Origin: a virus
IMG/VR virus record: IMGVR_UViG_3300042892_003972
Coordinates: 1 to 44,591 of that record
DNA: 44,591 nt
Direction: 5' to 3' (one strand)
Below are positions 9,474-36,640 of the stretch, piece by piece. Position 1 is the first letter of the stretch. The number at the start of each line of letters is the position of its first letter. The position numbers and the translations under genes are program-made. The notes under the pieces are model-generated. The model did not search any database and was not told the origin of the DNA. It was given only the letters and a program-made list of their open reading frames with translations.

Positions 9474-9502
9474 TTGACTTTCCTGATCCTTAATGATAGA
9501 CT
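9474..9502 (+). promoter_or_regulatory. promoter of the phosphatase gene
   Basis: TTGACT (9474-9479), 17 bp, TAGACT (9497-9502). Confidence 0.8.
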
Positions 9503-9533
9503 CACGCTAAATAAAGAGAAAGGGGGGTTAGTC

Positions 9534-10046
9534 ATGGAAAACCTAGACAACCTCGCAGTAATAGATAAGAGCGTGGAAGCACCACGCTACGAGATTGAGT
9601 ACCCACAAGAGTTGTGGTCGGAAGTCTTAGAAGGATTGTGGATTGGCGGAACAGATGATAATGACATCTACGACCAATTAGAAGTACCAATGATTAGGCG
9701 AGAGCATTTCGATACTGTCTTTACGGCGTATGCGTGGGCTAATCCTGTGGATTGGTTTGTCAAAGAGATTCGTTATGGTTTCTGGGATAGTCATGTAAAG
9801 GGTGAAGCAGGTTTTAATCCTGCGGAGTTAGACGACATAGCCTCAATGATGTATGCCGATTGGAAAAATGGTAAGAAGGTTTTATTCCGTTGTCAAGCAG
9901 GTCTTAATCGTTCGAGTCTATGTGCTGCTTTGGTCTTAATGAAAGACGGCTATACGGCAGATGACGCTATCGCCCTTATTCGTGAGAAGCGAAGTCAGTA
10001 CGCACTATTTAATAAGACTTTCGTAGATTACCTGAGAAGCCTATAA
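9534..10046 (+). CDS. dual-specificity protein phosphatase
   Basis: 170 residues, ATG at 9534 after AAGGGGGG. The signature Cys-x5-Arg is FRCQAGLNRSS: Cys120 is the thiol nucleophile, Arg126 holds phosphate, and Ser follows as in the family. Asp85 (WDSHV) is placed to be the general acid. Length and order match small dual-specificity phosphatases, which are common in actinophages. Usual Cys-flanking His is replaced by Arg. Likely acts on host or phage phosphoproteins in the cytoplasm. A kinase-like domain is encoded at 27.9-28.7 kb, but no direct link is shown. Confidence 0.85.
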   Translation: MENLDNLAVIDKSVEAPRYEIEYPQELWSEVLEGLWIGGTDDNDIYDQLEVPMIRREHFDTVFTAYAWANPVDWFVKEIRYGFWDSHVKGEAGFNPAELDDIASMMYADWKNGKKVLFRCQAGLNRSSLCAALVLMKDGYTADDAIALIREKRSQYALFNKTFVDYLRSL

Positions 10047-16390: not shown

Positions 16391-16507
16391 AGGATTGAAT
16401 TATAAAAATAATTCTCAGAAAACTTTAAGGTATCTAACTTTCAGCCAATTCTCAGGAAAATAAAAATCAGCAAAAAGTAAAGTAAATTATCCGGAAACGA
16501 TTTAGAA

Positions 16508-16642: not shown

Positions 16643-16646
16643 GTCA

Positions 16647-17147
16647 ATGAAACATAGCCAGAAATTACCAGACGACGAAGTTCGTTTTATCTCTGCCATG
16701 TCCCCAGAACTTATTCCAGGACGCCTCCGCGCCCTTTGGGAAGCAGGATGGTCTTTGGGAGTCATTGCTAAATCTCTCAAACCTGTCCGCCCAAAGTCCA
16801 CAGTTCACTTTTGGGTCAAGAACGCCGCTAATCAGGAGCAAACACGAACAATTCCCTCTCCTCCAGCTAAATCACTGACCTCATCCGCTCCGCTTGCGTC
16901 TTCCCCTCGTATGCGTAGCATTTCTCCAGAGGTTCCACTAGATATGGTCGCTCATATACAACAGTTATCTCAGCTTTCCAAGCGCTACAGGTCTAAAACA
17001 CCTTCTTCCAGCCCCCTAGCACAGGCAAATAGAGAACTTACAGAGATTGCCCTAGACCTATATCATCGAGGAGTTCCTGCAGCCTCTATTGCTCAAGCCG
17101 CAGGAGTTACTTATCGTGCTATGGCAAGGAGAATCGCCAATGGCTAA
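16647..17147 (+). CDS. two-helix-turn-helix protein
   Basis: 166 residues, first strong gene of the late block. HTH-like segments at about 33-65 ('RLRALWEAGWSLGVIAKSLKPVRP') and 138-164 ('LYHRGVPAASIAQAAGVTYRAMARRI'), with a Ser/Pro-rich linker. The layout matches the - strand HTH protein at 13854. Position just before the head genes and next to the 16.2 kb repeats suggests a terminase small subunit or a regulator binding there; neither is proven. Overlaps the next gene by 8 bases. Confidence 0.6.
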   Translation: MKHSQKLPDDEVRFISAMSPELIPGRLRALWEAGWSLGVIAKSLKPVRPKSTVHFWVKNAANQEQTRTIPSPPAKSLTSSAPLASSPRMRSISPEVPLDMVAHIQQLSQLSKRYRSKTPSSSPLAQANRELTEIALDLYHRGVPAASIAQAAGVTYRAMARRIANG

Positions 17148-17466
17148 ACCCGCAAGCAGTGAAGACCTTGTTGTAGCAGTTTGGGCCAATCCAAAGAAGC
17201 AAAAGGGACGCCCTAACGCCCGCACACTGGAGACTCTTATCTCCGAATCATCAATTCATCCTATTGCAATGTCTTTAGCCTCTCTAAAAGCAATTCAACC
17301 TTGGAAAAACTGCCCAGTAGCAACAACTTCTATAGAAATAGATTTTTTGTTGACTCCAGAAATATCTAATAGAGAAAACCCTATTCTTATTCCGATATCT
17401 TTAGCCAAATCCTATCTGGGTTGGCAAGAATTCTATGTTTCACCGATATATACGGAGAATAAGTGA
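17140..17466 (+). CDS. hypothetical protein
   Basis: 108 residues. The ATG at 17140, inside the previous gene's end, is chosen over an upstream in-frame ATG. Basic N-terminus (NPKKQKGR), then beta-rich sequence. No motif recognised. The last bases overlap the next gene (GTGA). Confidence 0.55.
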   Translation: MAKPASSEDLVVAVWANPKKQKGRPNARTLETLISESSIHPIAMSLASLKAIQPWKNCPVATTSIEIDFLLTPEISNRENPILIPISLAKSYLGWQEFYVSPIYTENK

Positions 17467-17825
17467 GAATCAAAGCAGATGTCTTCCCAGCGGTGCTTAC
17501 AATTGCTGACCCAGGGTCGCTAGAGAATATAAATGAACTACTTCCACGAGGTGGTGCGCCGAAAGGGTCTAGAAAGTTAGACAGATGTAGGATTGTTGTT
17601 ACCGAGGAAAAGATTATGGTTGTTGTTGACGACCCTTCTGGCCCAAAACTTATCTTTAATGAAAATATAACCTTCCACTCCAAAGATGAGAAGGTTCATA
17701 GGGTAATTACTGAATCTGGAAAGATGATTGCTTTTAGAAAAGACGAAACCTGCGGATGTGGCTCACGCCTACGCAGTTGGAGTCCATATGGAAGCATTTT
17801 AATGTCACAAACAGAGGGAGAATGA
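17463..17825 (+). CDS. hypothetical protein with a C-terminal Cys motif
   Basis: 120 residues from a GTG in the overlap with the previous gene. Beta-rich, ending with 'TCGCGSRLRSW.PYG', a compact three-Cys sequence that I have seen at this place in actinophages. ATGA overlap with the next gene. Function unknown. Confidence 0.6.
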   Translation: MRIKADVFPAVLTIADPGSLENINELLPRGGAPKGSRKLDRCRIVVTEEKIMVVVDDPSGPKLIFNENITFHSKDEKVHRVITESGKMIAFRKDETCGCGSRLRSWSPYGSILMSQTEGE

Positions 17826-18112
17826 TGACAGCGCTAGAGTTTTTAATTATGGGATTGGCTACATACAGAATCACTAGGCTAATTATTCGTGATGAATTAC
17901 TAGCAAGACCTCGTAATTTTTTCTGGAAGAAGTTTCCTCCCGAGAAGTCTTTACTAGGGTATCTCCTGACTTGCCCTTGGTGTATAAGCATTTGGGTCGC
18001 ATTAGTTCTTCAGATATCTAGTATCATTAACCCAGAAGCCACGTATGCAGTAGAGATAATTTTTGCTCTATCTGCAATCGCTGGCCTGTTAACTGCACAT
18101 GAAGAGCGGTAG
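17822..18112 (+). CDS. DUF1360-like membrane protein
   Basis: 96 residues, ATG at 17822 (a second ATG follows directly). 'GLATYRITRLIIRDELLARPR' and 'LLTCPWCISIWVALVL' are the DUF1360 signature, with a Cys-Pro-x-Cys at the border of a membrane segment. Two to three membrane segments (about 1-16, 48-68 and 74-92). DUF1360 proteins occur in Bacillus and in phages next to head genes; their role is unknown. Confidence 0.75.
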   Translation: MMTALEFLIMGLATYRITRLIIRDELLARPRNFFWKKFPPEKSLLGYLLTCPWCISIWVALVLQISSIINPEATYAVEIIFALSAIAGLLTAHEER

Positions 18113-18150
18113 CCCCTCATGTTCCGTGACAACGACGAGGAGTTAAATTA

Positions 18151-19920
18151 GTGAGCGTATTTAAGCGCAGCGAACCAAACAATGACTCTACTCCTGTCTC
18201 CGTGCCAAAAAAGAAATCTGCTCCTAAGAAAAAAACACAGTCGAAGCAGACAACTCGTTCTCGCACACAATCTAGAATTCCTCAAGCTGCTCCGATAATC
18301 AGTGGAGCCGCATCTGTATTCCTATCTCAATCAAATCAAGCGCAAGCAGTTCCATACAACCAACCTCGCTCTCTTACAGCAGCAGCGGTACAAGTAAAGT
18401 TAAATGATAAAGGCGAATCAGAGCAATTTAGAAATCGCCGCTCTGCTGCTTCAAGTGCATGGCAAGCAGAAGCATGGGAGTATTACGACGCAATTGGTGA
18501 AATCAAATACGCATTTAATCTTGTTGCATCAGTTGTATCACGAATCAGAATTTTTCCAGCAGTAATTGATGACCCGTCTCAAGCACCAACATCAGTACGC
18601 TCTTCAACAACTTTAGATAAACAACTGTCTGCTGCAGCAGAGCGAGCACTTTCTCGTCTTGATTCTGCATACGGTGGACAAGCTGGGCTCCTCCGAGATG
18701 CTGCACTCAACCTCTCAGTGGCTGGCGAATGTTATCTAGTGCAGATGCCAGAGCGTAAGGGCTCAGGTATTCCAGAATCTTGGGATATTCGTTCTGTAGA
18801 TGAAGTAGTTATAGATGCTCGTGGTGGATACAACGTAGTAAGTCGCCGTGAGCAAGCAACTGGTGGCGGAAATACAGGACCAACAACTCATTTAGGTAAC
18901 ACCGCATTTGTTGGTCGCATCTGGCGTTCACATCCACGTTTCTCTGATGAATCAGACTCTTCAATACGTGGTCTTCTCGACCTTTGCGCAGAACTACTTC
19001 TTCTTAATAGAACATTCCGTGCGACTGCTCGCTCTCGCTTAAACGCTGGCGCACTTTATCTTCCAGATGGTTTATCAGTTGCTGCACAAGGCGACCCAGA
19101 CTATCCGTATGAAGATGGAGATGGTCAAACAGATCCTGGCTTCACAGCAGAAGAAGCAGAAGACGAGTTTGAAGACCAACTCATTGATGCAATGACAACT
19201 CCGATTCGTGATGAAGAGTCTGCATCCGCTGTTGTTCCTCTTATTATTCGCGGACCTGCTGAACTTGGCGACAAGATTAAGCAATTCAAGTTCGAGCGTT
19301 CATTCGACCCAGCACTTGCTCAACGAGCAGACCGTGTTCTAGAGCGCATCCTTCAAGGACTAGATGTTCCTAAAGATGTTGTTACTGGCTTAGCAAATGT
19401 TAAGTACTCAAACGCTTTACAGATTGACGAAGGACTTTACAAGGCACACATCGAGCCTTTGATGCTTCTTATTGTTGATGCTTTAACAATTGTCTACTTG
19501 CGCCCATACTTAATTGCTCAAGGCTATGCCCCTGCAGATGTTGACCGCATTGTTGTTTGGTATGACCCATCAGCAGTTGCTACTCGCAATGACCGCGCAA
19601 CGGATGCAGATTCAGGATTTGATCGTGGCGCAGTTTCTTATGAGACATGGCGTCGTGCTCACGGATTCTCAAACGCAGATGCTCCTACATCAAATGAAAT
19701 CGCAATTCGTATGTTGTTTGAAAAGGGTGCAATCACCCCAGAACTTACAGAATCAATGCTTGCAACTGTTGCCCCAGAGATGATGGAAGCAGTTCGTAAC
19801 GCACAGCAAGCAACCTCTGTTGCTCCGCTTCCAGCAGGGCTTGAAGACATTCTTAAGGGCGCTATAGCAACCCCTGAGACAGCAGCTCCAGCAGAGCCAG
19901 CCCCAGAAACAGAGCAGTAA
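18151..19920 (+). CDS. portal protein
   Basis: 589 residues from a GTG (ACGACGAGGAG upstream). A Lys-rich N-terminus (about 1-40), then the portal core: 'WEYYDAIGEIKYAFNLVASVVSRIRIFPAVI' (about 107-140), 'IWRSHPRFSDESDSSIRGLLDLCAELLLLNRT' near 255-285, and 'LDVPKDVVTGLANVKYSNALQIDEGLYKAHIEPLM' (about 405-445), both usual portal signatures. The C-terminus is Ala/Pro/Glu-rich. Forms the dodecameric DNA gate of the head. TAATG overlap with the next gene. Confidence 0.85.
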   Translation: MSVFKRSEPNNDSTPVSVPKKKSAPKKKTQSKQTTRSRTQSRIPQAAPIISGAASVFLSQSNQAQAVPYNQPRSLTAAAVQVKLNDKGESEQFRNRRSAASSAWQAEAWEYYDAIGEIKYAFNLVASVVSRIRIFPAVIDDPSQAPTSVRSSTTLDKQLSAAAERALSRLDSAYGGQAGLLRDAALNLSVAGECYLVQMPERKGSGIPESWDIRSVDEVVIDARGGYNVVSRREQATGGGNTGPTTHLGNTAFVGRIWRSHPRFSDESDSSIRGLLDLCAELLLLNRTFRATARSRLNAGALYLPDGLSVAAQGDPDYPYEDGDGQTDPGFTAEEAEDEFEDQLIDAMTTPIRDEESASAVVPLIIRGPAELGDKIKQFKFERSFDPALAQRADRVLERILQGLDVPKDVVTGLANVKYSNALQIDEGLYKAHIEPLMLLIVDALTIVYLRPYLIAQGYAPADVDRIVVWYDPSAVATRNDRATDADSGFDRGAVSYETWRRAHGFSNADAPTSNEIAIRMLFEKGAITPELTESMLATVAPEMMEAVRNAQQATSVAPLPAGLEDILKGAIATPETAAPAEPAPETEQ

Positions 19921-21290
19921 TGGCTGATATTAACGGCTGCCCTCCTGCTACACAGGACATTGCAATTAATCTTACTAATCGTAAGAAGGCAATTGATACT
20001 GCGATGTATGGACCGCTTAATCCTGCGGAACCAAACGAAGAATATTGGAACGCATTAGGCGCTGAGTGGAATGTAGATTCTGAGACTGCAAAGAAACAAC
20101 GTTGCGGTAACTGCGCTGTATTTATTCAGACTCCAGAAATGCTTTCTTGTATTGAAACAGGTTTAACAGATAACGCAGATGAGTTCGATTCAATCAACGA
20201 GGCTGGCGAACTTGGCTACTGCGAAATCTTCGACTTCAAATGCGCATCAGCACGTACCTGCCGCGCTTGGGTTGCTGGCGGCCCAGTAACTGCTGCTGCA
20301 AATAAGAAAACAATTTCTCAGACCCCTGCTCCTAAGAAAGATAAAGTAAAAGGCTCTAGCAAAAATAAAAAAGGTTCAGCATCTGGAACTAGAAAAGTTG
20401 TATTTAGTAAGGCAACAGAGAACACCCTCTCTACCAAAGTCAAAGAACACAATGAAAAAGCACCAGAAGGTAGAAAAGCCTCTCTAGGAATGCTTAAGGC
20501 TGTATATCGCCGTGGCGCTGGAGCATTTTCTACATCTCACCGTCCTGGTATGAATCGCAACCAGTGGGCTATGGGCCGTGTTAACGCTTTCCTTAAACTT
20601 CTCAAATCAGGTAAGCCAACAAACTCTGCCTACACAACAGATAATGATTTGCTCCCAGCTAAACACCCTCGTTCAACAAAAAGAGATAACTCAATTACTG
20701 CCTCTGCTGGTTTAGTCCCAGAAGAGTCAGACCTAGCTAATGCTCTCGTCGAAATCGCTGAGAAGTATGGAAAGTTTAATGAAGATGCCACAGGAATTTG
20801 GGCAGGATATACACCCGCCGCAGAAAACGAATACAAAGGAATCGGAGTCAAGTGCTCTTCTTGCGTTCTATACATGGGTAATGGATCGTGCAGAATCATC
20901 GAACAAGAAGTCGAAGACGAAGGTAAATGTCGTTTTGCGGTTATCCCAGATGGGGTCGTTGATGTCGGAGTTCTCGAAGGCGAAAAACTCGGAAACAAAA
21001 ACCGATTAACAGAAGATACTCTGCAGGAGTATCGCTTTGACCGAGAATTATCAATATCTCTAGGAAGCAAAGAAGACTATAATTCTCCAGAGGATGCCAT
21101 CCTTGCTATGGCAGAATTTTCTGGAGCAGGGTATGAAGCAGAAGATGCAATTAGAGCATCTTGGCTTCGTGCAGTTCGTGCAGGTGGAGACCCGTTTAGA
21201 AGAGCATCGTTACTAGCACTACATGGAGAACTTAGTCTTGATGCAGATTTACTACCAAGTTCAGAAGAAGAAGAAGAGGATGACAACTAA
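19920..21290 (+). CDS. Cys-rich head-cluster protein
   Basis: 456 residues. Two Cys clusters: 'CGNCAVF...C...C' (about 62-116) and 'CSSCVLY...C...C' (about 313-340), each able to bind a metal. Between them is a helical module 'LKAVYRRGAGAFSTSHRPGMNRNQWAMGRVNAFL' (about 200-233) that occurs in actinophage head proteins, followed by 'DNDLLPAKHPRST'. V123-T-A-A and I259-T-A-S are possible maturation sites. A minor head protein is likely; it could also be a maturation target. Confidence 0.65.
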   Translation: MADINGCPPATQDIAINLTNRKKAIDTAMYGPLNPAEPNEEYWNALGAEWNVDSETAKKQRCGNCAVFIQTPEMLSCIETGLTDNADEFDSINEAGELGYCEIFDFKCASARTCRAWVAGGPVTAAANKKTISQTPAPKKDKVKGSSKNKKGSASGTRKVVFSKATENTLSTKVKEHNEKAPEGRKASLGMLKAVYRRGAGAFSTSHRPGMNRNQWAMGRVNAFLKLLKSGKPTNSAYTTDNDLLPAKHPRSTKRDNSITASAGLVPEESDLANALVEIAEKYGKFNEDATGIWAGYTPAAENEYKGIGVKCSSCVLYMGNGSCRIIEQEVEDEGKCRFAVIPDGVVDVGVLEGEKLGNKNRLTEDTLQEYRFDRELSISLGSKEDYNSPEDAILAMAEFSGAGYEAEDAIRASWLRAVRAGGDPFRRASLLALHGELSLDADLLPSSEEEEEDDN

Positions 21291-24200
21291 TGAGCCGTAT
21301 TCGCCGCTTAAGCCAAGTAATTTCTGAAGAGGGTCGCCGTTCACTGGCATCTCAGCAGGCATCACGTATTCGCGACACCGCTTTTGGGATTGTCGACGAA
21401 GCAAACTTAAACGCATCTACGAGTCGTAAGATCACAAAGAAGGCTGCTTTCACAGTTGTACTTCGCTCACTTCAATCAACACGAGAGCTTCCATTCTCAC
21501 TCCGTGAGCACATGGCTATCAAAGAACTTTCTCAATACATCACTCTTGCTCAAAGTGATAAGTCTAACTCTCTTACTCTTTCTAATACAGACCTTCTACC
21601 AGTCTCACACCCACGTTCTACCCGCAACCACGCAATGACTGCTTCTGCTCTCATGGAAGCTCGCGCACGCTGGGTTGCAGATGACCCTCGCATTGTTGAT
21701 GGATACGCAAAAACAATTATTGCTTCTGCTCTTACATCCAAGTATGCATCTGTAGAACATGTTTACTACAACTCTATTCTTTCTAGCCTTCCTCAGGGAG
21801 TAGTTCCTGCAGAGGTTATTGTTGCTGCTAGTAATCCATTCTCAGGTGGAAACTCAAGTGCGGAGCGTTCACTTCGTGCTCGTTTGCAGCGTCGTGACCG
21901 TGAAGGTAAATTCGCATTTATGGGCGGAGGACTTAGCGCCCTTGTTCGTAAGAGCAATGGCAGAGTTTATAACCTTGTAGGCCGCCCAATTATTGATGGA
22001 CCTAATGGCGATGACATTCAGATGGAACTTCCTGATGGAAAAATTGTAAACATCCCCGCATCAAAGGGTATGTTTATTAAAGCTGTTATTAATCCTACTC
22101 CAGATGGATACAGTAAAGATACTGCAAAGACAGCGACAACTAAGAGCATTATTAATGAAGAAGATTTATCTTATGTAGATGCACCTCAAGGATGGAAAAA
22201 AACTGGCCCTAACACTTGGATCTCCGAGGATGGTTGGAGCATTGAAAAAGGTAGAGATAAAAATGGCTTCTTCCAATACGAGATAAAAGATCCTTCTGGA
22301 AAAACAGCAGGGACTAGTAGCGGCAACTGGGAAGATGCTTTAGACAGTATTGCAGAAAAGAAAGAGGGAAAGAAAGCTGTTCTTCCTTCAGATAACAAAA
22401 ACAACATTGTTCCAAAAAAGGCTCCTGTAGACATTGGTGGCAATGGGGAAGGGCCTAAGCCTCCAAAACCTTTCGAGTTTAAATACCCTGAAGGCGCAGT
22501 TAAAATTAAAATTGATGAGATATACGAACCTGAAGGTCGTAATGAGGAAGAAAGCTCAGACTATACAGATGACCCTGTAGAAATTGGCCAGAAGTTTGAC
22601 CCTAGAGATTTAGTTCAGGCTTTAGAGCAAGGTGCTATTCCTCAAAATAAAGGAGAGAACGCTATTGGTTATGGTGTTCTTCGTTTTAATGGCGGCGATG
22701 AGTTTGTACCTGTACAAGCAATCTATAACGCACTTGATGAAGCAGGAGAAGATGCTGCTCTAGAACTTGCACGCATTTATGACAAGGCTTTAGGCGGTAA
22801 TGGTAATGAGAACGCTCTTAAGGATAACCGTAAGGGTATAGCACGCCTTGATCAATCAAAGCCAGATGTTGCAGAATCATTTGAGCGCACTATTGCTATG
22901 AACCCAGATGAGGTTCCAGCAACTGAACTACCAAAGTTTAGTGAAGCAGAGATGAATGAATCTTCACTTCCTCCAGTTCTTGAGGGTTTATCAGATGCCG
23001 AGAAAACTCAACTTATGGAAACAGGAGATCACACTCCTTATCTTCCAGAGAACGAATCTATTGATATGCCAGAAGGCTACAACACTCTTGATCCAGCGCC
23101 TTTCTCTTCTTGGCGTGAAGTAACTGCTGATACACCTGATGCAGTTCTTCCAGAAGGCTTCAGTGATAATCCTGTATTCATTGCTAAGTCAGTTGGCAAA
23201 GATAAGCTAGAGACAGAACTTCGCCGTTCAATTGAACCAGACTCTGCAACACCAGGCTATGCAAACATCTCACTTGAAGATGAAGATGGCGAAGAGTTTG
23301 TTGCTAACGTTCCAGGAGAAGCAGTGCGTGATGCGCTTCAACTTCAAGGTGTAGATACAAACGCTCTCATTAAGAGCATTGCTGATGAAGGTTTTGCTGG
23401 TCAAGAAGATCAGATAATCATGGACCCACCTAAAGATGGTAAAAAGAAAGACTGGGTTCAGCAAGAGCCAGTTTTCAAGCGTGATAAAAATGGTAACTGG
23501 GTTGAGCAAGAACCAATCTTCAAGCGTGAAGAAATCATCATGGACCCACCAAAAGACGCGCCTGAGCAAGGCGACAAGTTTATTAAAAATGAAAATAATG
23601 GTTACATGGAGTACGACCTAGGCAACCGTTACGTTGTGTCCTACGGTAAAGATGAAGATGGAAACTGGTTTGCAGAGATGAACAGGTTCTCTCGTGATGG
23701 CGGCGTTGATTCAGAGAATAGTTTCCCTGCAGAGAGTGAAGCAGACGCTCGTGCAATGGCAGAGGGTCTTATAGACAGATACAACGACGCTCAAGAATGG
23801 GAAGCCAGCGACCAAATAATCATGGACCCACCTAAAGATGCGCCAGCAGGTGGTGGCAATGGCGGCGGTCCAAGTGATCTAGGTAAAAAAATCTATGAAC
23901 GTCGCATTGCAACAGGCGAATCACTCGATGAGGTTGCAAAAGACCTTGGCCTTACTCGCCTAGAAGTTCGACGCTTAGAATCTCAATACGCACGTTCTCT
24001 TGAAAGTAAAAAATCTACTAGTGACTTTACAAATCTCACTCCAGACCAATTAGACAGAGTTAAATCTATCTTAGGAAATGACAAAGTCGGAGAGCAAGGC
24101 GGATTTGCGTTCATGCGTGATAGCTCTGGAGGCGTCGAAGTCTATAAAGGTGGATTTGAACCAGGTGACAAGCCTGTCGCTACTATATTAGAGGACGGTG

Positions 24201-27200
24201 GTATCGACTGGCCAACCGAAGCAGATTATGACGCTAACGCAGAGAGTCTACAAAAAGCTCTTGAAACTCCATCAAAAGATGGTGGTCAAAATATTAAAGA
24301 TGTAGATAAAGCATTAGATTTCCTAGATAAGCACATGGATGATATGGGCACTACTGAAGATGCCGCGATGGGCATCTCTCAAGCGCAGGATCACCTTAAG
24401 GAAGCAAAGAAGGACCTTGAAGCAGGAGATATAAAGTCTGCTATTTCATCTCTTGAAGATGCGTTTAACTTAATGGACGGCCTAGAAAGCCCAGGTGAAG
24501 GCGTCTTCCCTAACGGTGAGAACTCCGCTGAAGCTGTAGACGTTGTAAATAAACTAATTACTCGTCTAGAAGAGATAGATGCTCCTAAAGGTTTAGATAA
24601 GCCTGAAAATAAAGAAGCAATTGCCGCATTTAATAGACAATATGTAAAAGATTTGCTAGATCAAGAAGAGGCACGAGCAGACGAGCTACAAGCAGAAGGC
24701 GAAGGCATGCCTCGCGGCGATGCGCAAGGAATTGCTGAAGCAGAGATGAAGCGCATGTATGGCAAGACTGCTGGTGAAGCTCTTGACGAACTTCCTCGCG
24801 ATGAGGCACTAAGAGTTCTTAAAGAAAGACAAGACGAGTTTGATAAAGGTGTAGTACCAGATATTTCTGAACCACCTGCACAGTCAGATTATGTTTTTGC
24901 TGTTGATGTAAATAGTCCTACTCTTCAAGAAGACATTCAATCTGCAATTGACAAGGGTCAAAAAATTGCCTTTTCCTATAATGGAAAAGAAAGAGTTGTT
25001 CTTCCAAAGAGCATTTGGACTAACCCAAAGAACGGCAATGTAAACCTTCGTGCTATAGAAGATGGAACTGATGGAGGACTAAAGGTCTTTACATTGGATA
25101 AGATGGAAATGGCAAAGGGCGCTATGCCTTCACCTAACGCTCCACTTGTTAAACCAGAAGTCGATGATGAGGGTAATGTAGAAACTCTACCATCTGATGG
25201 AGAAATTGATGGAAAAGCAATGGGTCGCGAAGCGTTTGAAAAGGGCGAAGTTATGGCACCTTTTTACAACAAACCTTTTATGGATTCGATAAAAGACAAG
25301 TCTACTGATGAAAGACTAAGACTACTAAGAGATTATGTCGAAGGCTTTTCCAGAGCAAACGCAGAAGCTCCTGTTGAATCACTTCCTAATGCACCTAAGG
25401 AGGTTGACGACGAGGCTCTACTAGACCGTCGTCTAGCAGGAGAGTCTCTTGATGTAGTTGCTGAAGACCTTGGAATCTCTCGTGAAGAAGTTCGCCGCCG
25501 CGAGATGAATGCACTGCGTAAGCGTAGAGAAGCAAATCCAGATTTACCTCCTGCTCCTCCTATTGAAGAAAATGTTCAGGCTCCAAAGAAAGAGCTTCCT
25601 CAGAATGAAAAAGTTAAGTTCTCCCAACTAAACGAAGAAGAGCAGATGGAAATTCTTCGTGACAATGCTCGAGTAGAAGAGCTAGCCGATAACATGGCTG
25701 GTATTAAAGCTGGAAACGTTAAGGTCGGAGACTTTGTATACCATCGTCAGCTTAATCGCTGGGAAAAAGTTGTAAGAATTGAACAAGGAAAAGAAAAGGG
25801 ATTAGATCGTGTTATTTTTTATGTCTATAACCCTATTGTTGGAGAAGAGCAACCACGTCCATATCAGAGAATTAGTCCTTTAGAGTTTGTTCGTCGTATT
25901 GACGGCGGAGGTATGGGCGAGAGATTCCCTGTAGGAAAGGCTCGTGGTAGAGGACGTCGTAAAGATATTCGTGTAAAAGAAGATCCTCTAGAGAGAGTAA
26001 AAATTCGTGAGGGAAGAGTCGCTCCTGCTATTGATAAAGAGAAAAATAGAGGATTATTTAAAGACAGAAATGGCCAACCTATTCTCAAAGGTGATGTAGT
26101 TATACATGCTGACCCGGAGAAGGCAAAGAAACTTGGACGTGGAATTGTTAAGCGCCGCGTTGGAGATCAAGTAGATGAAGGAAAGAAAGTTGGAGGCCTT
26201 GGAAGAGATGGAAAGGTTCGCTTAGACTACGTTCGGGTTCAATGGGAAAATGAAGACGCTGAGAACGCCATCAATAATGATGGTGATCGTCTTATTGTTG
26301 CCAAAAACCTTCTTCCTTATGATGGCAACATTACTGGTCTTGTTGAAAAACTTGAAGAGAAGCCATGGAAGGGTGGAGTTGCACGTCCTAACGGTAGAAA
26401 TGGAAAGGCTGCACCTGCTCCAGCAAATCCTGCTGCTCCAGCGGAGCCAAATGTTCGTCCTGGAATGCCAGAAAATATTTACAATGCTAAGTTCCGAGAT
26501 AAAAACGGTGGAAACTTTGAGATTAATCTTATTAAAATAGATGACGTATATGAAGGCGCTCTTATTGATAGAAACGTAGCAGAAGATCCTCAAGACGCTA
26601 GAGTTCAGATTGTTGTCAGAGATAAAGATAAAAAAGTTGCGATGGATGCGTTAGCAAATGCTCGTGAGATTATTAAGGGTGCTGCCAATGGCCAAGAAGC
26701 CTTGCCAGATATTCCTAATCTTGATGGCACATTTCTTGGAGATGAAAATTCAAAACCTGCTCGAGTACCAGAACAAGGAAAACTTCTAGATACTCCTGAA
26801 GGTAAACCTGCTGCTCCTGCTCCTGTTGGTCCAGGTATGCCTAAGGCTATTTATAAAGCAGAAGTTGAAGATGAAAAAGGTAACAAGTTTAAAATTAGTG
26901 TAGTAAAAATTGATGATGTGTATGAGGCTGCCGTATTTAATGAAAATGGCGACCTCAATGCAGTTATTGCTAAAAATATTTCACTTGCTGAAGTACAAGG
27001 AGTGGTTGGTCGTTTTATTGGTGATGTTGCCGAGTCTAATGACGGAGACAAAGTTATCCGTCTTTATGGAGGGCTTCCAGAGCCAGTAGAACAGCCCGTG
27101 TTGACTGGTGAAGCGGTAGATGTACCACCACTTCCTGCAGTAAAAGCAATTGACCTTAAGGAAGCAAAGGCTCGCGCAGCAGCTTTAGCAGAGATTCTCA

Positions 27201-28711
27201 AAGAGAGAGAACTACCTGGAGATGCTCGAAAAAATTTAACATTAGAAGAGCAAGAAAGAATGAAGCAGTATATTCGGGCATATCTAATTACAGGTGGAGC
27301 AGCAGTAGACCGCCGTCAAAATGCAAAGTTCAATGATGATCTTCGTGTTGCACGTAGATATGCGATGGCTCTTGGTTGGTTTGATGAGGCTCGAGAAATT
27401 GCTGCCATACAGAAGAGAGTAGATAAACTCCCTCTTCGACCTATGGATGCTGAATTCAATGGCAATATTGAAAAAATGCAAGAACTTCAATCTATTGTTG
27501 CGGGACTAGAACTAGACCTTGCTAGACCATTAGGATTTGAAGGAAGAAGAAAAATTAATGATCTTATGGAAGATATTGATAAGGTCATAATGAATCCTGA
27601 CTTACACAATCCTGATTTTAGAAATGGAATTCTTCGTGGAAGAAGAAACATTGATAAAATAATGAACGATCTAGAGGCAGCAAAGACATTCCTGCAAGGT
27701 CGCAATCGTGACACTGCTCAGGTTGAAGAAGTAATAGAGAAAGCCAAAGAGTTTAAGAAGTATTTTGATAATTTTGGAGACATGCCAAAACTTCCAGAAC
27801 GTTCTCTGGAAGGCGCGGACGATAAAACTAAAGCTCTAGCAAAAGTTGCTGACCAAATAAAAGGAATGAATCTTGACGATTTACGTAATGGTTTTGGTGA
27901 CTGGAAGTTTGAAAAAGAATTAAGTAGTGGAATCAATAAAGTACTTCTTTTTAGAAATCCTCTTAATGGAGAAAGAGTAGTCATAAAGCACGATGATGAC
28001 TATTTAAAGAGGGGTGGAGGACAGGTTAAGTACTATGGCAATGGTGCTCGAGCAGAAGACATAGTTGCAGCTCTTTACAGAGACTTAGGATTTGCTCAGC
28101 CTGCATTTGTTGCTGCTAATCCAGGAGATGTTGATCCAGATATTGGAGGAGTAGGAGTCATGGAATACGTAGGAGACGGATTCTTTGGACTTGCAAACAT
28201 TGACGTTCACAATAGGGCGGGAATTAGAGACATTAGTCAAGTTGCACCTGAGCATAGAGCAGAATTGCTTGACTTTTTAGTTGCTAATGCAATTATTGGA
28301 AACTCTGACCGACATGGAGAAAACTTCATGTGGGGACTTGATCCTGCATCAGGAGAAGCAAGGCTTGTACCTATCGATAATGGACTTGCAATATTTAATG
28401 GAGGATTTAATGAAGCAGAAGAAAATATAAATAATCCTCTGCACTTAGACCCTTATAAAATACTTCAGGGTAAAGCTGGTCAGAGAAATGGAAACCGCAA
28501 TCACGCAGGAAGATTTGGTAAGCAATGGGTTAGAGAAATTGGAGAAGATGCTGCTAAAATTCAAATAGTTGAGTTTGCTACTCGTATGCGCGAGCGTGCA
28601 GAGGCTTTAAAGTTTGTTGATCCTAGAGCAAATGCTTATCTTATGGCACGAGCAGACTACATTATAAATGACCCTCAAGGGCTCATTGATATTCTTAAAG
28701 GTTTCTGGTAA
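21290..28711 (+). CDS. giant head-cluster protein with C-terminal kinase-like domain
   Basis: 2,473 residues between two head genes. N-terminus (about 1-215) is head-like: 'TDLLPVSHPRST' as in the previous gene, then M116-T-A-S. Linkers repeat 'IIMDPPKD' at 709, 749 and 843. Two short helix-turn-helix units resemble sigma region 4 (about 865-903 and 1373-1413). About 1200-1280 is WYL-like (strand-turn, 'FSYNGKERVVLPK', 'VFTLDKMEMA'); about 1476 and 1588 look like small barrels; 1724 and 1849 begin two copies of a 'IKIDDVYE' unit. Residues 2204-2473 are kinase-like: Lys2233, catalytic loop 2338-NSDRHGEN-2345, metal Asp2363 (PIDNG). Fold is nearest to PI3/4-kinase or HipA families. Probably carried in the virion and possibly ejected; not shown. 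Confidence 0.7.
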   Translation: MSRIRRLSQVISEEGRRSLASQQASRIRDTAFGIVDEANLNASTSRKITKKAAFTVVLRSLQSTRELPFSLREHMAIKELSQYITLAQSDKSNSLTLSNTDLLPVSHPRSTRNHAMTASALMEARARWVADDPRIVDGYAKTIIASALTSKYASVEHVYYNSILSSLPQGVVPAEVIVAASNPFSGGNSSAERSLRARLQRRDREGKFAFMGGGLSALVRKSNGRVYNLVGRPIIDGPNGDDIQMELPDGKIVNIPASKGMFIKAVINPTPDGYSKDTAKTATTKSIINEEDLSYVDAPQGWKKTGPNTWISEDGWSIEKGRDKNGFFQYEIKDPSGKTAGTSSGNWEDALDSIAEKKEGKKAVLPSDNKNNIVPKKAPVDIGGNGEGPKPPKPFEFKYPEGAVKIKIDEIYEPEGRNEEESSDYTDDPVEIGQKFDPRDLVQALEQGAIPQNKGENAIGYGVLRFNGGDEFVPVQAIYNALDEAGEDAALELARIYDKALGGNGNENALKDNRKGIARLDQSKPDVAESFERTIAMNPDEVPATELPKFSEAEMNESSLPPVLEGLSDAEKTQLMETGDHTPYLPENESIDMPEGYNTLDPAPFSSWREVTADTPDAVLPEGFSDNPVFIAKSVGKDKLETELRRSIEPDSATPGYANISLEDEDGEEFVANVPGEAVRDALQLQGVDTNALIKSIADEGFAGQEDQIIMDPPKDGKKKDWVQQEPVFKRDKNGNWVEQEPIFKREEIIMDPPKDAPEQGDKFIKNENNGYMEYDLGNRYVVSYGKDEDGNWFAEMNRFSRDGGVDSENSFPAESEADARAMAEGLIDRYNDAQEWEASDQIIMDPPKDAPAGGGNGGGPSDLGKKIYERRIATGESLDEVAKDLGLTRLEVRRLESQYARSLESKKSTSDFTNLTPDQLDRVKSILGNDKVGEQGGFAFMRDSSGGVEVYKGGFEPGDKPVATILEDGGIDWPTEADYDANAESLQKALETPSKDGGQNIKDVDKALDFLDKHMDDMGTTEDAAMGISQAQDHLKEAKKDLEAGDIKSAISSLEDAFNLMDGLESPGEGVFPNGENSAEAVDVVNKLITRLEEIDAPKGLDKPENKEAIAAFNRQYVKDLLDQEEARADELQAEGEGMPRGDAQGIAEAEMKRMYGKTAGEALDELPRDEALRVLKERQDEFDKGVVPDISEPPAQSDYVFAVDVNSPTLQEDIQSAIDKGQKIAFSYNGKERVVLPKSIWTNPKNGNVNLRAIEDGTDGGLKVFTLDKMEMAKGAMPSPNAPLVKPEVDDEGNVETLPSDGEIDGKAMGREAFEKGEVMAPFYNKPFMDSIKDKSTDERLRLLRDYVEGFSRANAEAPVESLPNAPKEVDDEALLDRRLAGESLDVVAEDLGISREEVRRREMNALRKRREANPDLPPAPPIEENVQAPKKELPQNEKVKFSQLNEEEQMEILRDNARVEELADNMAGIKAGNVKVGDFVYHRQLNRWEKVVRIEQGKEKGLDRVIFYVYNPIVGEEQPRPYQRISPLEFVRRIDGGGMGERFPVGKARGRGRRKDIRVKEDPLERVKIREGRVAPAIDKEKNRGLFKDRNGQPILKGDVVIHADPEKAKKLGRGIVKRRVGDQVDEGKKVGGLGRDGKVRLDYVRVQWENEDAENAINNDGDRLIVAKNLLPYDGNITGLVEKLEEKPWKGGVARPNGRNGKAAPAPANPAAPAEPNVRPGMPENIYNAKFRDKNGGNFEINLIKIDDVYEGALIDRNVAEDPQDARVQIVVRDKDKKVAMDALANAREIIKGAANGQEALPDIPNLDGTFLGDENSKPARVPEQGKLLDTPEGKPAAPAPVGPGMPKAIYKAEVEDEKGNKFKISVVKIDDVYEAAVFNENGDLNAVIAKNISLAEVQGVVGRFIGDVAESNDGDKVIRLYGGLPEPVEQPVLTGEAVDVPPLPAVKAIDLKEAKARAAALAEILKERELPGDARKNLTLEEQERMKQYIRAYLITGGAAVDRRQNAKFNDDLRVARRYAMALGWFDEAREIAAIQKRVDKLPLRPMDAEFNGNIEKMQELQSIVAGLELDLARPLGFEGRRKINDLMEDIDKVIMNPDLHNPDFRNGILRGRRNIDKIMNDLEAAKTFLQGRNRDTAQVEEVIEKAKEFKKYFDNFGDMPKLPERSLEGADDKTKALAKVADQIKGMNLDDLRNGFGDWKFEKELSSGINKVLLFRNPLNGERVVIKHDDDYLKRGGGQVKYYGNGARAEDIVAALYRDLGFAQPAFVAANPGDVDPDIGGVGVMEYVGDGFFGLANIDVHNRAGIRDISQVAPEHRAELLDFLVANAIIGNSDRHGENFMWGLDPASGEARLVPIDNGLAIFNGGFNEAEENINNPLHLDPYKILQGKAGQRNGNRNHAGRFGKQWVREIGEDAAKIQIVEFATRMRERAEALKFVDPRANAYLMARADYIINDPQGLIDILKGFW

Positions 28712-28726
28712 GGGAGAGATGATTAA

Positions 28727-29134
28727 ATGAAAACATATTACAAGTCCTACTTTAATATTCATTTAGATGGAAGAGAGGAAACGCCTGCTTTCATAATTTT
28801 AGCTCAGGAAGAAGAGTACGGCATTGCTTTTCCTGAAACAATGGACGAGGAGAGTATTGAAATTATGTCAATGGCTATCGGTACTCGAATTGCAGTAGCA
28901 AAAAAAGAAGGCACTCTTACTCCTGGAGAGATTCTTAACTCAATACCGTATAACATGATGTTTATTCAGACAAGCGAGGAAGACATTATCTACCCTACAT
29001 GGGAAGAGGCATCTGATGAAGCAAAGAATTTTTTAGAAGCATTTTCTCATAAAAGTAGTGGATGGAAGTTCAAACTCCATTCTCCAATGTCTTCCGATTC
29101 TTCAGACAATGACAATAAGACAGAGGAGAAATAA
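28727..29134 (+). CDS. hypothetical protein
   Basis: 135 residues after GGGAGAGATG. Alpha/beta with acidic surface and a polar, Ser-rich end. It is located between the kinase-like gene and the maturation protease, so possibly a virion component or a chaperone. No family recognised. Confidence 0.65.
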   Translation: MKTYYKSYFNIHLDGREETPAFIILAQEEEYGIAFPETMDEESIEIMSMAIGTRIAVAKKEGTLTPGEILNSIPYNMMFIQTSEEDIIYPTWEEASDEAKNFLEAFSHKSSGWKFKLHSPMSSDSSDNDNKTEEK

Positions 29135-29136
29135 TA

Positions 29137-29454
29137 ATGGCCTTTACACCAGAAAAACCAGAGAACCTAGATGACCTTATGGTCTTCTGCGACAGTGTGG
29201 AAGATGAAATTGTTATTTTCATGTACGACGCTGGCGCTGAGGGGCTTTTTTATAGATATCAAAAAACTTGGAAAGAACTACTAAACCCAGAAGATGACTA
29301 TAACCTTAACTTAGATGACTTATCATTGATATATGTTCTTCCTACGTTTATAGAGGTATATGACGAAGCAGAAGAAGTAAAAGAGATTATCCCTATTTCA
29401 GAGGTTTTGGAATATAAGTCTGTAGATATAGAAGATCTAAAGGACAAGGAATAG
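29137..29454 (+). CDS. hypothetical acidic protein
   Basis: 105 residues, 2 bases after the previous stop, GAGGAGA upstream. Very acidic, no Cys; predicted beta strand and helix mix. It could be a small assembly protein. Three bases separate it from the protease gene. Confidence 0.6.
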   Translation: MAFTPEKPENLDDLMVFCDSVEDEIVIFMYDAGAEGLFYRYQKTWKELLNPEDDYNLNLDDLSLIYVLPTFIEVYDEAEEVKEIIPISEVLEYKSVDIEDLKDKE

Positions 29455-29457
29455 ATA

Positions 29458-32400
29458 ATGCTATTTATTGGTCGTAGTGGCGACGAGGTCCTATTTTCCG
29501 CAGGGGAATTGGCAGTAGTTGTCGACGAGAAAAGAAAACTAGTTTCTTCCGTAGGTAGTTCAGAGGTTCTAGTTGCCTCTTTCACTCCCTTTGGCGACCA
29601 AACAGCACCAGACTCCGTACCTTTTGAGTTAGCAGTAGCAGCTACAACAGATTTAGACGTCAAGGTTTTTTCAAATAATGACCGTCTTTATACAATTCCA
29701 AAAGCAGTTCAGGCAGAAGCAAAGCGTGCCCTCGAGTGGCGCAAAAAAGAAAAGCGTGGCGGAACACCTGTTGGTTTAAATACTGCTCGCACTCTTGCAA
29801 AGGGCGGTCAGATTGGTATTCAAAAGGTTCGCCACATTGCTAAATACTTTCCACGCCATCAGGTAGATAAAAAGGGTAAGGGCTACGAGCCTGGAGAACC
29901 TAACTACCCATCAAATGGTCGTATCGCTTGGGCACTCTGGGGTGGAGATGCCGCAGAGCGTTGGGCATCAGCAATTGTTGATCGTGAAAATAAAAAGGCT
30001 CAATCAAACTCAATTACTGCGTCTTACAATCACATCATGGGCGGCTACGAGAGCCCAGGTAGAGTTGAGTTCGATGCGTTTATAGAGTCAGAAACACTTC
30101 CTATAGAGAGTGCTCCTCAGTTTTATATCCGAATCCGTTTGGACTCTGGAAAAGTTGACCGTATTTATAAAGTAATTCCAGATGGTGCTTGTTTTGTTTG
30201 GGATGACGGTATGTGGGAAGACTTAGGAAATGTAAATCACGATTTTGAAACATATGACCGTTCATTAGATGACCCATATGACAGAACTGTAAAGATGCAT
30301 GTACCTGTAGATGTTCAGACATCAATCATTCTTTGCGGAATGTTTGACTCCAACCCATTTGAACCAGTATCAATCTCTCAACTAGCTCCTGAAGAGGCTC
30401 AACTCTTTGTTGACCAAGTAAGTGGTGTTGATTGGGGACTTATTGATGCAGTCTTGTTTGATAATACTGACAACTATGTAAGTTTTGAAGATTACTCAGG
30501 TAGTTCAATTACTGCAGCCGCTCCTGAAAAAGGAGACTCTGTTACTTTAAAGTCCACTATTACGGACCAAGATGGAAATTACACACCAGAAGAGCGCTCA
30601 TCTAAGGCTCGTGGTCAGGTTCGTAATAAGAATGGCGAGTTTGCTAAAGCTGGTGGCCGTGTAGTTATTGGTGGAAACGCTAAGTACTCAGGAACAGTTG
30701 AATCTGCAAACTCAGATACACAAACATTAAAAATTAAACTTGATAACGGCAATGTCGTAGATGTTCCAGGAAACACAACAGAACCCGCAGACACTTTTGT
30801 GCCTTTGCCTCAAGTTCAGTCAGCATCTTCTACAAAACAACTTACTCGTAATATTCTAGGACAACCTCGCACACCTATTGATAGTCCAGTTGCAAATGTT
30901 CCTGGAAAACTTCCTCAATTAAGAAGTAATCAAGTAAATACAATCCTCGCTGACTTCTCCCCTTGGGCTACTGATGCTAGAACAGCTAAATTAAACACTG
31001 GTGCTGCTCCCACAGAACGCTCTGCTCTTATTCAGCAGATAATGGATAGCCCTACACCTAATGCTTATAACGACCCCTCACTTCGTTCTTTCTTAGAGAA
31101 GTCTTCTAAGTCAGCAAATGGCGAAACTTTATATCCAAACGCTATTTGGTATCGCCCAGATTTACGCGGAGTTAAACCAGGAGATGTAGATAAGTACAAG
31201 GCAACTAAAAGTTTAACTCCATCTCCAGGAAAGAACCCTGCAAGTTGGTTACAACAAAAACCTAAAGGATTTACATCTGCTGCAGAATCAGCTCCAAAAA
31301 ATAAAGAATTAACTCCAGATACTTCAGATGTTCCACCAATTTATATTGCTATTGTCTCACCTGATGACCCTCAGGCGGTAATGGATTTAGTTTCACTAAT
31401 TCCTGCATCAACAAACTCCACTAGTCCTATGACATTTATTCGTAAGCCTGGAAAGTGGGAGAAGAACGAACAAGTTCTTAATGACCTCAACAGTCCTACA
31501 CCTCCCCCAGTTGTTGTATTAGATGATGAAACACTAGCAACTGTTTTAGAGCAAGTTGATTCAATCAAACCAATGACATCTTCTGGCTACGATGACTCAG
31601 ATATGAAGATTGTTGCTGCAATGATTGCAGCAGGCGGGGCTGATAGAAATAAAGGAAACGCTGAAGAGTTACGTCAGTATTGGCTAACTGGTAAAGGCGC
31701 AGCAAAGATTCGTTGGGGAACTGGTGGAGACTGGACACGATGCGTTCGTCAGCTCTCTAAGTACATGGGTCCTCGAGCAAAAGGCTATTGCGCTCTTCGC
31801 CACAAGGAAGCAACTGGTCTTTGGACTGGTGATAAGGAACATAGACAACTCTTTGGAAAGAAGGGTAAGGCAAGGAACTCTTTTAGTAGCGACTTTGTTG
31901 TTTCTTCAGAAGCAATAATTGCTTCAGCAACTATTAGAGCAAGAGCAGAGGATGCTCGAATAAGAGTATTTGGTGAGCAACCTGTTTCAGAGAATAAGGG
32001 AGCAAGTTTCTTTATCCCTCTAGTAATTCCAGAAGGAATTGAGTCAGGAGATGGTCGCAAGTTTGATGCTGGCGCAATCACTATTCGTGAGCTTCCTCTT
32101 CCGTTTTTATGGCAAATCAAGACTGGTGAGGGCCATTCAGGATCAGTTGTAGTTGGAACAATTACAAAGATGGAAAGAGTTGAAAACGGTATTGGAAATG
32201 CTTACGGGCATTTTGATAGCGGAGAGTATGGAAAAGAAGCGGAAAGATTGGTTCGTGGAGGCTTCATTCGTGGAGTATCTGCTGACCTAGACATGTTCGA
32301 AGCAAAAGAACATGAGAATGCTGCTAAAGACGATGCTGACGGCAAAGTTGGAGCAGGTAAAATGAAGATAACAAAGGCAAGAGTTATGGCCGTAACTCTT

Positions 32401-34528: not shown

Positions 34529-36640
34529 GTGGACCGAATTAAAGAACAAGTGGACCAACTTGCCGAGCTAGGTGACGATCAAGTTACCGAACTTCAAAGT
34601 GAAATCCTTAGTGCATTTGAGTCGGTTGAGAAGGAAGATCCTACCCCGCAGACAGTTGACGCGATGACGTCGCTTGCCGATATGCTTGATGGAGTTAGAA
34701 ACGAAGTCAAGCGCCGCGAGGCCGCAGCCGTAGAACTCGCTCAGCGAGCCTCCGAGGCCGCTTCCCGCGTTTATGGACAAGATGACGAACCAGCAGAAGA
34801 AAACATGGATGCTGCACCAGCAGATGCTCCAGCAGAAGAGGCACCAGTTGCCCCAATGGCTGAAGCTCCAATGGCAAAAGCACCTACTTCCGAAACTCCC
34901 GTCCCAGCACTGGAAGAGGAAAAGAAACCAGAAGCAGCAGGCGCAATGCCAGTTGCTCCTACAGAAACTCCAGCCCCAGAAACTAAAGACGAGACACCTC
35001 CTGTTGAAAAAACAGAAGAAGAAAAGGAAAAGGAAAAGACCATGACTGAAGCGTCTACTACAGCGGGAACAGAAACCGAGTTCTCAACCACAGAAGTGAC
35101 TCCAGAAGCAGCACCTGCTGCTATCGAGGAGACAGTTGTTGCATCTGTTGAAACAACAGAAGCAGCAGCAGAAGTACCAGCCGAAGAAGCACCAGCCGAA
35201 GAAGCACCAGCAGCAGAAGCAGAAGCATCAGTCGATGATGCCGCAGCAGACGCCGCAGTTGCAGATGCAGTTGATGGCTCAGAAGCATCAATTCAAACAA
35301 CCGAATCAGCTGTGCCAATGGCACAAGAAATTATGGAGGCACCCGTGACCGCCGCTGCAGATAACGCAGATAACCTCAACATTGAGGTACCAGCGAGCCA
35401 CCGCCCTGTAGCACAGGCATCAGTAGCGGCAGTGGCAATCACTGCAGGTGCTGACATTCCTGGCTACACAGCAGGCTCTTCGCTAGACAACATGAACGTC
35501 GTTGCTGAGGCAATGGCAAAGCGTCTACATGGCCTACGCCGTGTAAACGGTGGAGATGGCGAGCAGCACATTGTTGCTTCTGTATCCACATCATTCCCAG
35601 AAGATCGCACTCTTACACAAGATGCAGAGTCAAACTGGAACAAGATTCAAGCAGTGACAGGTCCAGAGGCACTCGTTGCATCTGGTGGTCACTCAACACC
35701 ATTCGCAGTTAAGTACGACATCTTTGGAATGGGAACAACAGCACGTCCAGTACGTGATGCTCTTCCTCGTTTCCAGGCTGACCGTGGTGGTATCCGCTTC
35801 ATTACTCCTCCAAAGCTTTCTGATTATGGAAATGCTGTTGGTGTATGGACAAACGCAGTAGATACAACACCAGAGTCTGCTACAAAGGCAAGCCTTACTA
35901 TCACTGCTGCTTCAGAGAACACCGTCGCAACTGACGCTGTAACTCTACAGCTACAGTTTGGTAACTTGATGACACGTGCTTACCCAGAACTCATCGCTCG
36001 TCACAACGAGTTGGGTCTGATTCAGCACGCACGTGAAGCAGAACAACAGCTTCTTACACAGATCGGTGCTGCTTCAACAGCAGTTACAACTACTTCCCTA
36101 ATCGGATTTGGTCGTGACTTCCTAGTTCAACTAGGCCGCGCTGCTTCTGCTTACCGTTCACGTCATCGCCTAGAGGCTGATGCACCACTTCGTGCAATCA
36201 TTCCTGCTTGGGTTAAGGATGCAATGGCTGCTGACCTCGCTCTATCAATGCCTGGAGATTCACTTCTCAACGCATATGGTGAGATTGATGGTTACATAGC
36301 ATCACGCAACGTAAACCTAACTGCTTCACTAGATCAGAACGTGTCTGGCGCACAATCAGGGTCCGCTGCTCTAAACGAGTTCGCAGATTCATTCACTTGG
36401 TACCTCTTCTCAGAGGGCTCATTCTTGTTCCTTGACGGTGGCACACTTGACCTCGGAATCATCCGTGACTCAAGCCTTGTTGGCACCAACGACTACAAGA
36501 TGTTCGTTGAAACATTCGAAGGAATTGCTTTCATCGGAATCGAAGCACTGAAGATTACTTCAACCATTTCTGTTAACGGTGTGGCTGCTGCCCTCCGCGA
36601 CACAACTGGTGGAGCAACTGCTGCTGCGATTGAATACTAA
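34529..36640 (+). CDS. scaffold-major capsid protein fusion
   Basis: 703 residues from a GTG (AGGAAAGGACAG upstream). Residues 1-85 are helical and match the scaffold-like N-terminus of actinophage capsid proteins ('DDQVTELQSEIL', 'VRNEVKRRE'). Residues 86-300 are Ala/Pro/Glu-rich. From about 300 an HK97-fold coat protein follows ('FAVKYDIFGMGTTARPVRDALPRFQADRGGIRFITPPK', 'QLLTQIGAAST'). The protease should remove the N-terminal part; V273-T-A-A, I304-T-A-G and I348-V-A-S are candidate borders. An in-frame ATG (35042, residue 172) with AAGGAAAAGGAAAAG upstream could start a shorter form. Confidence 0.8.
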   Translation: MDRIKEQVDQLAELGDDQVTELQSEILSAFESVEKEDPTPQTVDAMTSLADMLDGVRNEVKRREAAAVELAQRASEAASRVYGQDDEPAEENMDAAPADAPAEEAPVAPMAEAPMAKAPTSETPVPALEEEKKPEAAGAMPVAPTETPAPETKDETPPVEKTEEEKEKEKTMTEASTTAGTETEFSTTEVTPEAAPAAIEETVVASVETTEAAAEVPAEEAPAEEAPAAEAEASVDDAAADAAVADAVDGSEASIQTTESAVPMAQEIMEAPVTAAADNADNLNIEVPASHRPVAQASVAAVAITAGADIPGYTAGSSLDNMNVVAEAMAKRLHGLRRVNGGDGEQHIVASVSTSFPEDRTLTQDAESNWNKIQAVTGPEALVASGGHSTPFAVKYDIFGMGTTARPVRDALPRFQADRGGIRFITPPKLSDYGNAVGVWTNAVDTTPESATKASLTITAASENTVATDAVTLQLQFGNLMTRAYPELIARHNELGLIQHAREAEQQLLTQIGAASTAVTTTSLIGFGRDFLVQLGRAASAYRSRHRLEADAPLRAIIPAWVKDAMAADLALSMPGDSLLNAYGEIDGYIASRNVNLTASLDQNVSGAQSGSAALNEFADSFTWYLFSEGSFLFLDGGTLDLGIIRDSSLVGTNDYKMFVETFEGIAFIGIEALKITSTISVNGVAAALRDTTGGATAAAIEY

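Follow-up and report, generated by a model that had tools for sequence, protein, structure and literature searches.

We describe a giant protein of 2473 residues, encoded among the head genes of a freshwater bacterial virus, which we read as a virion-borne effector of the polyvalent type that would be packed into the capsid, trimmed, ejected and active as a kinase in the host (probability about 0.6). The window, which is the whole stretch of DNA that was analysed, is the full IMG/VR record IMGVR_UViG_3300042892_003972 (44,591 bases). Packing and ejection of the giant are likely, though unproven, in light of the homology of its N-terminal anchor to a head-cluster protein, its slot among the head genes, the swapping of its C-terminal end between phages and an ITASA-like motif close to its N terminus.

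The C-terminal kinase domain and internal modules

We take the C-terminal domain of the giant as a real kinase, on the basis of its conserved residues and predicted fold. Seven C-terminal domains of the family were compared, namely that of the window and six others that are 22-62% identical to it, and K2233, E2256, N2338, D2340, R2341, H2342, N2345, P2361, I2362 and D2363 were invariant among them, also in lineages with as little as 22-27% identity. The residues K, E, DRHxxN and ID occur in this order within the predicted kinase fold. The top match of the model in the PDB was CtkA (E 6.6e-5, probability 1.00), and the next were Bud32, CK1 and CK2. An initial annotation, made from the sequence alone, had read K2233, NSDRHGEN (2338-2345) and IDNG (2362-2365) as parts of a kinase of the PI3/4K/HipA group and had proposed structure prediction by segment as a check. 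The motifs lie at these positions, their catalytic residues are among those invariant in the seven sequences, and the CtkA match bears out a kinase fold; the group assignment has to be amended, as the modelled fold resembles CtkA more than it does PI3K or HipA proper.

The best matches of the kinase in a viral library were proteins of uncultured Caudovirales, one of which had been annotated as a PI3/4-kinase beforehand. Among the 84,980 bacterial and archaeal genomes searched, relatives were found neither of this kinase nor of the N-terminal anchor. Between the window and a relative with the same kinase type (L013), the ratio of non-synonymous to synonymous substitution (dN/dS) in the kinase was 0.28.

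The two sigma4-like helix-turn-helix (HTH) elements and the WYL-like module that had been suspected in the middle of the protein were recovered by profile searches. The Sigma70_r4 match reached 30.5 bits, relative to a cut-off of 24.1. Pfam WYL was matched by 17 of the 26 family copies of the WYL-like module (best 3.6e-5), and the profile of this module retrieved PafBC and other WYL regulators from the PDB. The segments initially read as barrels (1474-1558 and 1601-1685) correspond to modules that are kept in close relatives. WYL-like modules occur in up to four copies in some relatives (L028, L039, L041 and L042). A duplicated module at residues 399-500 and 608-701 (22484-22789 and 23111-23392) is present in 52 family members, a wider distribution than that of the HTH and WYL parts.

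The N-terminal anchor and a putative cleavage motif

The giant gene was initially placed between the portal and maturation protease genes, and this holds, with a DUF5824 gene and two small genes also lying in the interval; the order is portal, DUF5824 protein, giant, two small genes, protease fusion, major head protein and tail genes. The giant was also said to share an 'LLP..HPRST' segment with the neighbouring head protein, and the counterpart string in the DUF5824 neighbour is indeed DLLPAKHPRST. When this string (DLLPxxHPxST) was excised, profile comparison of giant residues ~20-95 with the neighbour still gave a probability of 89% and a score of 34.2, as compared to a maximum of 15.3 for 30 column-permuted control profiles. 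Because the homology persists without the LLP string, the two proteins have a domain in common beyond a peptide, which is more than had been claimed. Further along the giant, a segment similar to RARLQRRDREGKFAFMGGG is present in the giants of Microbacterium and Arthrobacter phages.

A few residues past HPRST, both the giant and its DUF5824 neighbour carry ITASA or MTASA. Related motifs are LTAAA in the portal, ITASY and ITAAA in the protease fusion, and VTAAA and AITAG in the major head protein; none was found in the tail genes of the window. The pattern [ILMV]TA[AS][AG] was counted over all fetched loci, with expectations derived from shuffles. In these sequences, which are related and not independent, it was found 46 times in the giants (3.3 expected), 21 times in the DUF5824 proteins (0.35 expected), 22 times in the protease fusions (1.25 expected) and 7 times in the head proteins (0.9 expected), and in minus-strand decoy frames 2 times (2.4 expected). 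The remaining plus-strand matches were mostly in unclassified head proteins. We consider the ITASA-like motif a strong hint, not proof, of a prohead-protease site.

The head-cluster location, the common N-terminal domain and the cleavage motif would also suit a protein with a structural or scaffold-like function inside the head, which is packed and whose kinase acts during assembly on the capsid, the portal or the giant itself, and the same could be said of a giant size that is kept while the modules vary. In contrast, swapping of the enzyme end, which extends to a DarT-like ADP-ribosyltransferase (ART) as described below, is the pattern of conflict effectors and not of assembly enzymes, and the WYL and sigma4 modules fit targets such as DNA or RNA polymerase. 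An assembly role thus appears improbable to us.

Exchange of C-terminal enzymes among related phages

The family consists of giants of 1.8-3.7 thousand amino acids in actinophages, whose genes adjoin those for the portal, head protease and capsid. A profile search with the front end yielded 80 viral-contig loci, and a search with the window protein retrieved phage DSL-LC01 from Dishui Lake, which has been grouped with actinobacteriophages (PMC10611076). Giants or ART proteins occupy the same slot in DSL-LC01 and in phages of Microbacterium (Pumpernickel, Zooman), Arthrobacter (Atuin) and Gordonia (Forza). Gp82 of the cultured phage Pumpernickel has a terminal kinase (PI3_PI4 7.2e-5), and gp80 of Forza matches an ADP-ribosyltransferase well above the cut-off. 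In Atuin the protein in this slot, gp71 (3113 amino acids, L090:15575-24916), matches a DNA helicase family (phrog_1967, E 1e-74), and its C-terminal stretch matches a 'head maturation protease' family.

Whether homologues carry different C-terminal domains, a check suggested at the outset, was answered clearly in the affirmative. Among the 26 members with an intact end, 10, the window included, have a terminal kinase and 16 combine a DarT-like domain at the end with a GSNxGG module in the interior; no member (0/26) is mixed, and Zooman and Atuin carry neither. When the tail label was placed on a tree of the front ends, three changes were needed, two of which are forced by well-supported branches. 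The proposed modular architecture is supported, and the case for a head-protein anchor is strengthened by the homologous N-terminal domain, the putative cleavage motif and the matching gene position in cultured phages.

The alternative tail, for example that of L056, has H, R, Y and E at conserved sites. The six best PDB matches of its model (predicted local distance difference test score, pLDDT, 82) were all DarT, with probabilities of up to 0.99 and E no better than 5e-3. The GSNxGG module (L056 residues 1238-1437 and counterparts) is common to Gordonia and T5-like phages at 33-44% identity and had no match in Pfam or the PDB. Its alignment with the window kinase puts the catalytic residues in register, but with a probability of 0.2, which is not significant; it is possibly a HipA-like kinase. 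We rejected the possibility of an ADP-ribose eraser in ART-type phages, which would have been the counterpart of the phosphatase of the kinase types (see below): ART-type records contained no macrodomain or ADP-ribosylglycohydrolase, and in this search a macrodomain was found in Pumpernickel only.

DNA comparisons showed that the C-terminal enzyme and the genes that follow it are swapped between phages as a unit. The window and L002 are 92% identical over 16417-23440, and the middle of the giant gene is a mosaic of ~90%-identical pieces in changed order. Identity to L002 is 90% just before the block that comprises the kinase end and the two next genes, is lost within it, and resumes at 92% at 29459, in the protease gene, whereas L013 retains this block at about 80%. 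Synonymous divergence between the window and L013 was 0.98 in the kinase and 0.26 in the front end, which fits separate histories of front and tail.

The 135-amino acid gene directly behind the giant has no BLAST match in L002, which carries another kinase, and has distant relatives behind other kinase types. The genes behind the freshwater kinase-type giants form one divergent family (K_A, K_B and K_C; probabilities of 66-83% in combined comparisons) that is unrelated to the gene behind the ART types. A rule that each C-terminal type always has its own kind of downstream gene was dropped in view of Pumpernickel, in which gene 83 is similar to the neighbour of the ART types. That the 135-amino acid protein is a cognate inhibitor of the kinase is a reasonable guess, no more. 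A dual-specificity phosphatase (DSPc) gene lies ~12 kb upstream of the giant and is also present in three other kinase-type records (L002, L079 and L006); searches of ART-type records, fragments among them, did not find it, and neither did a search of Pumpernickel. Few records are involved, and L002 is nearly a copy of the window; we treat a pairing of phosphatase and kinase as a lead only.

A polymorphic toxin of the MuF kind, directed against competitors or non-permissive hosts and with the gene behind it conferring immunity, would likewise have a constant front and a variable tail, and the joint replacement of tail and downstream gene, as well as the distant relationship of K_A, K_B and K_C to one another and not to the ART-type genes, agrees with it. 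However, no MuF domain was found, prophage life is unlikely given that the anchor was not found in the 84,980 bacterial and archaeal genomes searched, and the correlation with the downstream gene is broken by Pumpernickel. We regard such a toxin as unlikely.

Proposed virion location and comparison with known systems

In the virion-borne effector reading, the DUF5824-like N-terminal domain and the LLPxxHPxST segment would bring the giant into the prohead, where the prohead protease would cut it at MTASA. The giant would then leave the virion with the DNA at ejection, and modules that possibly bind DNA or nucleotides (the sigma4-like HTHs and WYL) would hold it near DNA or RNA polymerase, while the CtkA-like kinase would phosphorylate a host protein at the onset of infection. 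The product of one gene behind the giant may silence the kinase until packing.

Yersinia phage fHe-Yen8-01 encodes a giant (WOL24339.1, ~2,150 amino acids) that carries the annotations ADP-ribosyltransferase and 'phage particle associated protein' and is 39% identical to the GSNxGG module of the ART-type relatives. A literature search returned no paper that deals with fHe-Yen8-01 or with the virion proteins of the phages discussed here, and no proteome of the phage studied here or of a close relative. This result, and the fact that a late-operon position is by itself no proof of packing, would accommodate a late protein that is never packed and acts while the cell is dying, where its target might, for instance, be superinfection or host defence. 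We give this possibility only a small chance, because the front end is homologous to a head-cluster protein, a protease-like motif is present, and a giant with one module common to the relatives is recorded as particle-associated.

Several further points weigh against a virion-borne kinase. The Pfam matches of the terminal domain to PI3_PI4_kinase (E 0.0025, 18.2 bits) and HipA_C (E 0.093, 12.8 bits) are below their cut-offs of 27.1 and 30.5 bits, respectively, and the AlphaFold2 model of the kinase is of moderate confidence (pLDDT 61; predicted template modelling score, pTM, 0.66). The cleavage motif is short, was used in part to define the portal class, and is altered in a few members (ELSNQ in L018, FMTNF in L024). 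The fHe-Yen8-01 giant has only one internal module in common with the relatives and shares neither the anchor nor this kinase, and Pumpernickel breaks the downstream-gene link. The low family scores and the moderate model could in addition point to a degenerate kinase that merely binds ATP or a partner, yet the catalytic positions are all kept over deep divergence and the dN/dS is low enough (0.28) that we find this very improbable.

If the effector reading is correct, the virion brings in a protein kinase that is active ahead of any phage gene expression, and closely related phages trade this kinase for other enzymes as a block, which would represent a little-explored route by which actinophages subdue their hosts. 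The DUF5824 head-targeting domain and the cleavage signal could then be used for predicting other packed proteins, and cultured phages such as Pumpernickel, which has a related gene, make the idea testable. More tentatively, it is possible that actinophages have a modular virion-effector system with two interchangeable arms, in which the effector is either a terminal CtkA-like kinase with a phage-encoded dual-specificity phosphatase and a quieting gene or a terminal DarT-like ART with its own internal module. In either arm, a DUF5824-type head-targeting domain would serve for loading and the prohead protease for release.

The features discussed here are collected in the table. A search of the window found no integrase. 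Four further regions were noted. At 6019-6588 lies a Proteasome/HslV-like peptidase (Pfam Proteasome, 23.4 bits, cut-off 22.4), and DSL-LC01 has one annotated as HslV. The protein at 6834-7751 is signal-peptide-like, with subtilisin-like segments (AVIDSG, NHATGM) and no Pfam match. A protein at 3344-3844, starting from ~3452, had no Pfam match and contains a YHAT...GLRAGFGEVYAS segment that we take to resemble RNA 2'-phosphotransferase/ART proteins. At the contig end, a perfect 120-bp tandem repeat of 2.1 copies (44345-44591) lies in the tape-measure gene and is either real or an effect of the assembly end.

Table. Coordinates of the giant, its parts and associated genes in the window
Feature	Position	Strand	Basis
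Dual-specificity phosphatase, possible counterpart of the kinase	9474..10046	+	Pfam DSPc 36.5 bits (cut-off 33.5); CQAGLNRS motif
Portal protein	18151..19920	+	phrog_776, E 6e-108; PRSLTAAA motif close to N terminus
DUF5824 head-cluster protein, 456 aa (amino acids), N-terminal module in common with giant	19920..21290	+	Pfam DUF5824, E 2.8e-8
Giant polyvalent-type head-cluster protein	21290..28711	+	Open reading frame of 2473 aa, ATG start, single stop
N-terminal domain homologous to DUF5824 of neighbour, residues ~20-95	21347..21574	+	Profile comparison
DLLPVSHPRST segment, residues 101-111	21590..21622	+	Conserved in family and DUF5824 neighbour
MTASA, putative prohead-protease cleavage motif, residues 116-120	21635..21649	+	Motif enrichment (cleavage inferred)
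RARLQRRDREGKFAFMGGG conserved segment, residues 196-214	21875..21931	+	Family conservation
Sigma-70 region-4-like HTH 1, residues 864-908	23879..24013	+	Pfam, family conservation
WYL-like module, residues 1206-1275	24905..25114	+	Pfam and PDB profile matches
Sigma-70 region-4-like HTH 2, residues 1371-1411	25400..25522	+	Pfam Sigma70_r4, E 2.6e-7
Two modules, possibly small barrels, residues 1474-1558 and 1601-1685	25709..26344	+	Conservation, close relatives only
Exchanged block: kinase end and two next genes	27093..29458	+	No DNA similarity to L002
Kinase domain, residues 2191-2473	27860..28708	+	Conserved residues, fold model, dN/dS
135-aa gene, candidate cognate partner or inhibitor of kinase	28727..29134	+	58% identical in L013
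105-aa gene, within exchanged block	29137..29454	+	Detectable relatives behind most C-terminal types
Head maturation protease fusion, 1632 aa	29458..34356	+	phrog_859, phrog_18402, weak Peptidase_S78
Major head protein, long acidic N-terminal region, VTAAA and AITAG motifs	34529..36640	+	phrog_777, E 1.6e-73

The initial annotation knew of no described example of this architecture. As a general statement this was too strong, in view of polyvalent proteins, MuF toxins and database PI3/4K-like proteins of uncultured phages. Polyvalent proteins are giant, probably packaged multidomain phage proteins that include kinase and ART domains (Iyer et al. 2017, PMC5512222). They resemble the window giant in having several unrelated domains per polypeptide and a head-gene context in a portal-terminase phage. 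Their kinases, as described there, are of a truncated serine/threonine/tyrosine type and come mainly from (pro)phages of Verrucomicrobia-Chlamydia and Bacteroidetes, whereas the window kinase is of another class. The terms 'HipA', 'PI3', 'sigma' and 'DarT' do not occur in the available text, and a DUF5824-like anchor and its exchange pattern do not appear in those passages. The giant had no Pfam match to polyvalent signature domains such as ArdC-N, MPTase and DdrB-ParB, some of which may be without a model.

MuF toxins (Jamet et al. 2017, PMC5576092), for which ejection has been proposed, are similar to the giant in having a gene near the portal, a constant N-terminal head domain and a variable C-terminal enzyme. 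In contrast, toxin-bearing MuF proteins have been reported in temperate phages only, mainly of Firmicutes (PMC5576092), and the giant matched no MuF family in Pfam at E up to 1. T4 Alt is an enzyme that is packed in the head, ejected with the DNA and modifies host proteins, as summarized in PMC5512222; its likeness to the giant lies in the proposed role. Alt is an ART and not a kinase, and homology between it and the window protein was not observed.

With regard to single domains, CtkA of Helicobacter pylori (PDB 3akk), the best fold match, shares the GN-DRHxxN loop with the window kinase, although the two are 12% identical and CtkA is a bacterial protein outside any giant phage protein. DarT (PDB 7omv) is the best fold match of the alternative tail of the relatives, at 11% identity, and is not represented in the window. 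The fHe-Yen8-01 giant comes from a different phage group and has a GSNxGG-type module in common with the ART-type relatives. By analogy, the giant may work like a polyvalent protein or T4 Alt, although a formal place in the published sets is unproven. Thus, the concept of a head-packed multidomain effector is already known from polyvalent proteins, MuF toxins and T4 Alt, and what is new here is the anchor, the class of kinase and the pattern of exchange.
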